From assembly GCA_028724545.1 (NCBI GenBank), contig JAQYCU010000004.1:1-64000 (forward strand): 64,000 nucleotides of DNA, written 5' to 3'. The translations under genes were made by a program, and so were the position numbers. The stretch comes from a bacterium (GTDB lineage Bacteria > Bacillota > Clostridia > Lachnospirales > Lachnospiraceae). The notes beneath the pieces were generated by a model. The model did not search any database. It saw only the letters and a program-made list of their open reading frames with translations, and had not been told where the DNA came from. This document shows, one piece after another, positions 24,455 through 57,339 of the stretch. The first letter of the stretch is position 1, and each line of letters begins with the position of its first letter.

Positions 24455-24613
24455 GTGTTCCTGCCGTCACCGGCTACCTTTTCTATCGATGGCACGCTCT
24501 CGCTGCGCAAACTACGCAGCAGTACATAGTATCCTGTAAAACAGGATACAAGTACTGGCGAGTTTGTAAGCACCATCTTATAGAAAAGGTAGCCGGTGAC
24601 GGCAGGCAATTCA
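24455..24613 (-). repeat. Structured intergenic repeat, family 1, copy A (159 bp)
   Basis: Perfect 27-bp inverted repeats (24460-24486 and 24580-24606; outer ends CCTGCCG, inner ends CTAT) enclose 93 nt. Inside are a second short stem (GATGG/CCATC), a CTCGC/GCGAG stem, and two side hairpins: CAGTAC-GTATCCTGT with its complement, and GCTGCG-CGCAGC. Copy D at 57133-57291 has the same length, a nearly identical core in the opposite orientation, and arms that differ in sequence but still pair. The outer flanks CAATTCA and GTGTTC are also shared. The element lies between the CDF terminator and the DUF1653 gene. No protein is supported here; frames through it on either strand are by-products of the repeat. 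The gap 24614-24804 holds nothing I recognise. Confidence 0.85.
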
Positions 24614-24804
24614 GGGTGTTGGAGAACTATTTGTCTAAGTGTATGGAAACAATTAACAGAACAGTTGGTTTGTAAGAAGAGTGTGCTGTCAGGCAATTTG
24701 GATTATGGATTTTAAGAATTGTAATTATTATGGCTTCGGATAATTAAGTCAGCATATAAACTTTGCATTTAAATATATAGTGATAAGTAATCACTGAGTG
24801 AAAC

Positions 24805-24819
24805 TTTTATCACATGCCC
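24805..24819 (+). repeat. Isolated copy of the TTTTATCACATGCCC motif
   Basis: This 15-mer also ends the family-2 palindromes at 28591-28606 and 57043-57057 and occurs after element D at 57307-57321. Here it stands alone without a matching arm, about 97 bases before the DUF1653 gene, perhaps a decayed element end. Confidence 0.55.
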
Positions 24820-41659: not shown

Positions 41660-41673
41660 CTGTTTTAGAAAAA

Positions 41674-41934
41674 CGAAGAAGAGGAATAGTAGTTGCAGCG
41701 TGGAACACAGAAAGCTGTTGGTTGATGCGAAACAGCAGAAGCAAAGCAATGAACTCGCCTTGGAGTTGCCGGTTGAAAGAAAGAGTAGACTTGGACGGAG
41801 TCCCACCGTTATTCGGGAAGGGTATTGATAGGAATTGATGTACCTGTGAGAGCATGATGATTCATGAATTAGAGTGGTACCGCGTAAGAATATATTACGT
41901 CTCTATAGTTATCTATAGGGACGTTTTCTTTTTC
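41674..41934 (+). promoter_or_regulatory. T-box riboswitch controlling leuA (probably leucine tRNA)
   Basis: The leader starts with the purine-rich GAAGAAGAGGAATAGTA and has the stem I distal sequence AGAAAGCTGTTGGTTGATGC. It ends in the T-box itself, AGAGTGGTACCGCG (41871-41884), whose TGGTACC binds the free NCCA end of uncharged tRNA. The terminator ACGTCTCTATAG/CTATAGGGACGT with a T-rich tail is at 41897-41934. A CTC (Leu) triplet at 41754-41756 in GAACTCGCC is the best candidate specifier and fits the downstream gene. Uncharged tRNA-Leu would favour the antiterminator and switch leuA on. Confidence 0.92.
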
Positions 41935-47640: not shown

Positions 47641-47762
47641 TTGCATAAAGAAAGCTGTTTATGTTATAATGCCAAAAAGGGAATGAAGTTCTCCCGTGGC
47701 ATAACCAGAACCGCTATTTAGCTGATGACTTCTGTTTTTACGCAGAAGTTGTCAGCTTTTTT
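47641..47762 (+). promoter_or_regulatory. Fluoride riboswitch with promoter and overlapping terminator
   Basis: A promoter TTGCAT (47641-47646), 18 bases, TATAAT (47665-47670) starts an RNA with the crcB-motif aptamer. GGGAATGAAGTTCTCCC (47679-47695) is followed by AACCGCTATTTAGC and GATGACTTC (to 47732). The three pairings expected are present: GGGA/TCCC, GCT/AGC and GAAGTT with GACTTC. The 3' part of the aptamer (47721-47734) is also the left arm of a perfect-looking terminator with CAGAAGTTGTCAGC (47743-47756) and six T. Fluoride binding would hold that strand and stop terminator formation, switching on the antiporter gene. Confidence 0.92.
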
Positions 47763-56756: not shown

Positions 56757-56910
56757 AAATACCTCCTCGAAAACTACGTTTTCCAACTATTATTCTCTAA
56801 TTAAATATTATACAATAACACAGGTGAAAAAGCAAGCATGGAATGGGGTAGCAGCAACATATTGTACCTGCCAGCATAGGCTTCCTTTTTGTCAAGGACA
56901 CACTTTTTAA

Positions 56911-57057
56911 GGGCATGTGATAAAGGCAGACTTCCTACAGCAGCACGCTCTCGCTTGGAAAAAAGCACAGTGGTGCATAAGTTGACAAAAAACGTCAACT
57001 AAGCACCCGTGCTTTTTTAACAGCTGCCTTTAGGAAATCTGCCTTTATCACATGCCC
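56911..57057 (+). repeat. Palindromic intergenic element, family 2, copy C, with inserted hairpin
   Basis: 27-bp arms (56911-56937 and 57031-57057; outer end GGGCATGTGATAAAGG) are inverted repeats with one mismatch. Inside is AGCAGCACGCTCTCGC, as in copy B, then an extra nested hairpin: AAAAAAGCAC/GTGCTTTTTT, GGTGC/GCACC and AGTTGAC/GTCAACT around AAAAAAC. Outside that insertion, B and C align closely. The right end CTTTATCACATGCCC matches the recurring end motif. The 56757-56910 stretch before it holds only the PocR upstream region. Confidence 0.85.
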
Positions 57058-57132
57058 ATTTATAGACTGGCTGTTGTACTGCTTATTCAAGTTTATGGCT
57101 GTTAAGAAAGTTTTTTACAGAGAACCAAAAAA

Positions 57133-57291
57133 TGAATTGCCTGCCGGCATAGCTGCTCTCCTCTATACAAGGGTGCTTTCAAACTCGCCAGTACTTGTAT
57201 CCTGTTTTTTAGGATACTATGTACTGCTGCGTAGTTTGTGCAGCGAGAGCGTGCCCTTAATAGAGGAGAGCAGCTATGTCGGCAGGTACAC
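57133..57291 (+). repeat. Structured intergenic repeat, family 1, copy D (159 bp)
   Basis: 27-bp arms (57140-57166 and 57260-57286; one G-T pair) enclose 93 nt almost identical to the core of copy A (24455-24613, opposite strand). Inside are AAGGG/CCCTT, CTCGC/GCGAG, the hairpin CAGTAC..GTATCCT with its complement, and CTGCG..TGCAG. Relative to copy A, ten arm positions differ. Nine are full double substitutions that keep Watson-Crick pairing and one becomes G-T; the inner AAGGG/CCCTT stem adds two more compensated pairs. Flanks TGAATTG and GGCAGGWACAC are also shared. It lies just upstream of the nadB promoter. Confidence 0.88.
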
Positions 57292-57339
57292 TTTCAAGAG
57301 GTTCGCCTTTATCATATGCCCTTCAAAACCGTGCAGTGC

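Follow-up and report, generated by a model that had tools for sequence, protein, structure and literature searches.

The two 159-nt palindromes found in the 64,000-nt stretch of DNA analysed here (the window), copies A and D, appear on balance to be members of a mobile, non-autonomous family of DNA elements in Lachnospiraceae, whose apex carries a conserved, strand-specific fold that is probably needed for propagation and which would be moved in trans. Such an element is probably MITE/REPIN-like, with an apex fold that is selected, strand-specific and of RNA type. The preliminary description had offered a mobile palindrome and a structured RNA as alternatives; the analysis finds both at once, a mobile palindrome that carries a structured, RNA-type core.

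Copies A and D

Copy A, a family-1 type element of the source genome, occupies positions 24455-24613 on the minus strand (covariance-model match at 24476-24590, minus, 128.8 bits), and copy D occupies positions 57133-57291 on the plus strand (match at 57156-57270, plus, 129 bits). Their identical total length (159 nt) and arm length (27 bp) proved exact on re-measurement. The arms lie at positions 8-34 and 128-154 of the element, corresponding to 24580-24606 (5′ arm) and 24460-24486 (3′ arm) on the minus strand for copy A and to 57140-57166 (5′ arm) and 57260-57286 (3′ arm) on the plus strand for copy D (inverted pair I3). All 27 arm pairs of copy A are Watson-Crick, and copy D has 26 Watson-Crick pairs and one G-T. 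The ten arm pairs said to differ between the two copies are indeed all changed on both sides, nine to Watson-Crick pairs and one to G-T, with no single-sided arm change. The 93-nt inner parts differ at 10 positions, and several of these changes are paired.

The minus strand of copy A has a computed RNA folding energy of -97.4 kcal/mol (z = -13 against shuffles); folded as DNA, it gives -60.3 (z = -14). Of the fold first drawn, a long stem with two side hairpins, the long stem stands, while the side hairpins have to be corrected: at the apex, a junction bears one long, irregular hairpin and a very small one, of 2 bp, that is closed by a GNRA tetraloop. This loop is GAGA in both copies, on its 2-bp stem at 24498-24501 (minus) in copy A and at 57245-57248 (plus) in copy D, and it obeys the GNRA rule of copies outside the source genome. 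No promoter-like excess or terminator was found in or beside copies A and D.

Copy Number and Taxonomic Spread

A DNA search of the source assembly (G000, 2.27 Mb, Butyribacter) returned 47 places, and the covariance model R1, built from 18 copies, found about 77 copies of the fold in this genome, A and D being two of them. The model matched 25 of the 28 genomes of the genus, with up to 128 copies in one; Butyribacter intestini TF01-11 is one genome of the genus that was sampled. With a threshold of E ≤ 1e-5, the same fold was matched in 99 of the 250 Lachnospiraceae genomes sampled, representing 98 of 249 genera. Among 391 Clostridia genomes there were 11 positives, all of them Lachnospiraceae and none outside the family. 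A structural DNA pattern was searched over 84,980 species, and among the matches listed nearly all titles name Lachnospiraceae or its genera. One match titled Gammaproteobacteria (L326) was set aside, as the covariance model did not confirm it. It is noted that some contigs titled Gastranaerophilales, Muribaculaceae or Clostridiaceae carry the element, the bins of which may be mislabelled; many copies are present in L289, L316, L318, L319, L327 and L343, whose Gastranaerophilales or Muribaculaceae titles are probably wrong.

A 21-mer pattern taken from the core of the source genome had no match in genome contigs or viral contigs, because the variable helix differs elsewhere. The element was also without a match in 2.9 million viral contigs and in plasmids. 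Carriage by phage was rejected, since all four phage-collection scaffolds that were read hold chromosomal housekeeping genes. The faecal-virome records L455-L458 (MT838426.1, MT839508.1, MT836394.1 and MT837545.1), titled 'UNVERIFIED: Bacteriophage sp.', are probably chromosomal fragments.

Covariation and Fold of the Apex

The claim that the secondary structure is selected survived the refuting check set out in the preliminary description, being supported by the further copies, by their covariation and by the conservation of the core. In an alignment fitted to the model, and hence leaning towards the structure, of 96 distinct copies from named contigs that took no part in model building, double changes occur in 40 of 41 pairs and 90.9% of the paired cells pair. 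The covariation score of this set is 0.652, versus 0.172 when shuffled and at most 0.10 with slid partners. The 96 copies were retrieved by a pattern that fixes part of helix 4, so that the other five helices constitute the independent evidence. Helix 3, at the base of the irregular hairpin, pairs in only 67% of cells and is therefore either variable or partly misaligned.

In the apex fold of about 90 nt, the irregular hairpin carries a GUNUUUU loop and an asymmetric internal loop that does not vary (CUU / UAUG); the fold further includes the 2-bp stem capped by the GNRA tetraloop and followed by CGUGYC. The tetraloop is GNRA in 93 of the 96 independent copies and in 153 of 160 copies outside the source genome. 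The variants GAGA, GAAA, GCAA, GGAA, GCGA, GGGA, GTAA and GTGA are all present, N and R being free, and the 2-bp stem closing the loop covaries as well (GC/GC, GT/AC, AC/GT, AT/AT). An alternative hairpin, GCTRCG/CGYAGC, taken from single-sequence folds, was rejected because its pairing is at chance except at one position.

At paired positions, G-U combinations outnumber A-C (257 versus 70 in one set and 147 versus 52 in the other), which identifies the strand of the model as the folding strand. This excess fits RNA and single-stranded DNA alike, since the latter tolerates G-T too and may be what folds. The free N and the purine rule of the loop, as well as the change of the closing pair to U-A, favour RNA.

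The fold had been thought to match no named RNA family, in agreement with the Rfam scan (release 15), which gave nothing relevant at the gathering threshold over the window; at permissive E-values, copy D and seven homologues yielded chance microRNA-precursor matches only. Elsewhere in the window there are an ordinary T-box leader (121 bits) at 41667-41907 (+) and an ordinary fluoride riboswitch (47.5 bits) at 47670-47741 (+).

Conserved Core and Drifting Arms

The contrast between a nearly unchanged core and rewritten arms, described at first from copies A and D, recurs across the source genome. In its 31 ungapped copies the mean difference is 5.4% in the 76-nt core against 33% and 45% in the two arms, a six- to eightfold better conservation of the core within the same copies. 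Pairing of the arms is 82% Watson-Crick within copies versus 60% when arms are swapped between copies. On the simplest reading, an intact core and paired arms are both required for a copy to breed, and the need for pairing would make the arms drift in compensated steps. A copy would propagate only if the apex module folds on one of its strands, more likely in a transcript than in single-stranded DNA, and the population would drift with arms that change freely while still pairing around a fixed apex module.

In B. intestini, every exact target duplication lies beside a core-bearing copy, in a small sample. The core-less copies of 52-100 bp in this genome (L181, L187, L188, L191, L193 and L194) are deletion products with decayed, older duplications. 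A view of these short copies as the empty sites of core insertion was rejected; their junctions vary and sit at microhomologies. The comparison of core-bearing with core-less copies involves few copies, which we count against the mobile-element explanation.

Palindrome correction can produce double changes without selection. Two copies alone cannot separate selection on pairing from self-correction of a palindrome, whereas the GNRA loop and the unpaired invariant positions do. A plain MITE, with its hairpin complementarity kept by template-switch correction and its structure unselected, would explain double changes in this manner, and the short core-less derivatives indicate that hairpin instability is at work. 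It is nevertheless contradicted by the GNRA rule in the loop, by the invariant unpaired positions and by the conservation of the core over the arms, and we give it very little credence.

Insertion Sites, Ends and Target Duplications

The mobile-palindrome option is borne out by an empty site, by target duplications and by inverted repeats. The gap in which copy D lies is flanked by a nadB-like gene and by a sensor-like gene transcribed divergently from it. With the covariance model, no copy was detected near the nadB-like gene in 26 of the 26 relatives found, so the D site is empty in them. In G022 (protein 81% identical), this gap measures 168 bp, versus 619 bp in the source genome, and promoter-like motifs are intact on both sides of it. 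Aligned with Butyribacter relatives in which the site is empty, the locus shows a lineage-specific insertion between the two divergent promoters, with an approximate extent of 56838-57335.

The inserted sequence is composite. Directly to the left of copy D is its divergent partner, a family-2 member with the palindrome GGGCATGTGATAAA ... TTTATCACATGCCC at 56911-57057 on the minus strand (covariance-model match at 56927-57041, minus, 85.1 bits, E 3.6e-24; inverted pair I2). The left side of the composite also holds an end remnant of a family-1 3′ arm at 56863-56887 (minus), forming inverted pair I4 with 57274-57290, and the right outer repeat at 57298-57333 (plus) is inverted to 56899-56934 (inverted pair I1). 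Beside copy A, a family-2 end remnant (TTTTATCACATGCCC) at 24800-24819 (plus) has an exact 13-mer in common with the ends of the 56911-57057 element. In the orthologous D gap of G006, a different hairpin element (GTTACTATTCACGG ... GTGAATAGTAAC) is present upstream of the nadB-like gene (L406).

Recent copies in B. intestini are 211-215 bp long, with ends running from TAGG to CCTA, and are abutted by exact duplications of 10, 11, 11, 11, 12 and 14 bp (ATTGATTTATAAAA, ATCATTGTCTA, ATAAAAAGAT, TGAAATACTTTA, AATACACTACA and TTAAAATTATG). The pooled flank alignment of this genome gives an identity of ~0.46 versus 0.34 in controls, a signal weakened by dilution with old copies. In G193, about 20 copies of ~263 bp have other ends (GGGTGTCAAAAGCCCTTA) and direct repeats of ~8-11 bp. 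Duplication-like repeats were found at 22 of 177 copies, compared with 2-6 when partners were shuffled. Terminal inverted repeats and target duplication are thus clear in the recent copies of B. intestini and G193, and are not resolvable at A and D. Two findings are weighed on the other side: most copies are missing a clean duplication, which counts against the mobile-element explanation, and the terminal repeats differ between genomes, so that a single transposase may not serve them all.

The copies are non-coding and intergenic, as had been stated for A and D, and an element that is multi-copy and devoid of coding capacity conforms to a MITE in this respect. The gaps holding copies are co-directional in 88 cases, divergent in 25 and convergent in 14. 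Within the co-directional gaps, 37 copies have the same orientation as the genes and 51 the opposite one, indicating no preference. A replication-oriented or 3′-UTR role was rejected on the ground that orientation to the flanking genes is unbiased.

These data bear also on a different function, in which the copies are transcribed as a trans-acting small RNA or RNA regulator that is useful to the host or the element, binds a protein or ligand through its fold, and was dispersed by transposition. The complexity of the fold, which has a GNRA loop, a U-rich loop and a conserved internal loop, would suit such an RNA, as would the retention of the core in nearly every copy. We think it unlikely, in view of the missing promoter-like excess and terminator in and beside A and D, the use of either orientation to co-directional genes, the 60% of sampled family genomes in which the element was not found, and the D locus, which is not conserved between species.

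Candidate Mobilising Enzymes

The ends and duplications of the recent copies suggest a DDE transposase acting in trans. For the preferred mobile element, an enzyme encoded elsewhere, most likely of DDE type, would act on the inverted repeats to move it. Searches beside copies at 18 low-copy loci, at ~85 loci with 1.5-kb flanks and at 98 loci with mostly 8-14 kb revealed neither an autonomous partner nor an enzyme that could mobilise them; proteins common to the copy neighbourhoods belong to widespread families only, for example ABC ATPases and response regulators. The search of B. intestini and G193 for an autonomous element bounded by the ends of their copies was likewise negative, and both results tell against the mobile-element explanation.

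The Y1 transposase (PF01797) is absent from twelve high-copy genomes (G001, G006, G064, G069, G084, G087, G114, G121, G123, G193, G207 and G113); B. intestini is among the high-copy genomes that lack it. The sole Y1 gene of the source genome (L171, G000 C37:52655-53011), located near a contig end, is an ordinary IS200-type gene. The PF00078 reverse transcriptase is absent from the source genome with its 77 copies and from G004, G035, G069, G087, G114, G121, G123, G193 and G215. Both enzymes are missing in G069, G087, G114, G121, G123 and G193. Neither is needed, and both were rejected as movers because each is absent from many high-copy genomes.

To our knowledge, Y1 transposition makes no target duplications. 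A giant REP/REPIN that a Y1 (RAYT-type) transposase would move in the form of single-stranded DNA is accordingly at odds with the duplications observed here, as well as with the twelve many-copy genomes lacking a Y1 match and with the ordinary nature of the only Y1 gene in the source genome. Features described for REPINs (PMC3116915) would agree with it, namely doublets that are inverted, stems with compensatory changes, intergenic placement at random and a population-like drift; overall we consider it highly improbable. A SINE-like retroelement, for which a reverse transcriptase would copy the folded transcript into DNA and thereby generate variable-length duplications and self-templated arms, could account for duplications that vary from 10 to 14 bp within one element family and for the strand asymmetry with an RNA-type loop. 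The absence of PF00078 from the source genome and nine element-bearing genomes, among them G193 with its recent-looking copies, argues against it, as do the terminal inverted repeats, which suggest a DNA transposase, and this route seems improbable to us. Finally, the apex may be a genuine RNA, folding within a transcript to which a protein binds and driving the mobility of its own element. This would amount to RNA-dependent transposition without a PF00078 reverse transcriptase or a Y1 enzyme across a whole bacterial family, and we regard it as rather unlikely.

Comparison with Known Repeats

By its anatomy the element is of the MITE class and REPIN-like. REPINs are REP doublets that form hairpins, inverted and with compensatory stem changes, and they persist as a population within a genome (PMC3116915). 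The present element is like them in being non-coding, intergenic, of high copy number and randomly placed, with inverted doublets, compensatory stem changes and a persistent population (PMC3116915). Unlike the short REPs, its unit measures ~150-260 nt and has a complex apex fold with a GNRA loop; it also differs in having target duplications and in not requiring Y1/RAYT. No common foot of the GTAG/CGTC tetranucleotide type known from REP was visible by eye in the alignments.

The closest analogue in kind, judged by likeness of description, is bcr1 of the Bacillus cereus group, a repeat of ~150 nt with 39 copies on average and up to 130, the mobility of bcr repeats being linked to TTTAT motifs (PMC6542083, PMC2267715). 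Both are ~150 nt long, occur in tens of copies, and have mobile features and a predicted common secondary structure within one taxonomic group; bcr1 belongs to another taxon, and with the comparison made by description alone an unrelated origin is assumed. Bacterial MITEs (PMC2229807) share the lack of a gene, the terminal inverted repeats, the target duplication and the deletion derivatives. In MITEs it is usually the ends that are conserved, the inside being free, whereas here it is the inside that is conserved, in at least 98 genera, and the ends vary from genome to genome. A comparative survey of gut microbiomes produced 3161 candidate structured RNAs, some of them palindromic (PMC8040213). 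The present family resembles these candidates in having been found by comparison and in its habitat; the text of that survey describes no mobile Lachnospiraceae-wide family, a distinction by text only, so that overlap with an unnamed candidate is possible. The element is outside REP/REPIN as defined with RAYT, outside Rfam, and not a SINE by the reverse-transcriptase test.

Mobile repeats usually keep their ends, which are enzyme sites. Here the inside is kept across nearly 100 genera with a tetraloop rule typical of RNA, and the ends vary, which raises the question of whether a bacterial element has its movement controlled by a folded single strand, RNA or DNA, and by which protein that strand would be read. 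With the covariance model, one can annotate a repeat of gut Lachnospiraceae that is very common and apparently without a name, and that may serve as a marker of strain history; the recent copies in the cultured Butyribacter intestini make experiments possible.

Divergent Doublets

The element is found as single copies or in divergent doublets. Two cores within ~500 bp of each other are nearly always divergent, with their 5′ ends facing. This holds for 13 of 13 close pairs in the named-contig set, which was not selected for pairing. The source genome has 11 such pairs, and further ones are present in G014, G052, G084, G005, G258 and G386; in the single-contig genome G258, one divergent pair is the whole complement. 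One convergent pair was seen among all sets (G207), along with a few tandem copies. A REPIN-style conservation test of doublets versus singlets gave no clear difference.

The spacers of divergent pairs in two different genera hold minisatellite-like repeats of ~54-60 bp (e.g. TTTACAANTTGGCTGTTCTGC units). Such spacers lie between the two hairpins at L018, L004 and L019 (G000 contigs C15 and C4), and at L099 (1668-1756). Some spacers between divergent cores contain a third, core-less palindrome (L338, L323 and L295), which suggests that the doublet may be a three-hairpin unit.
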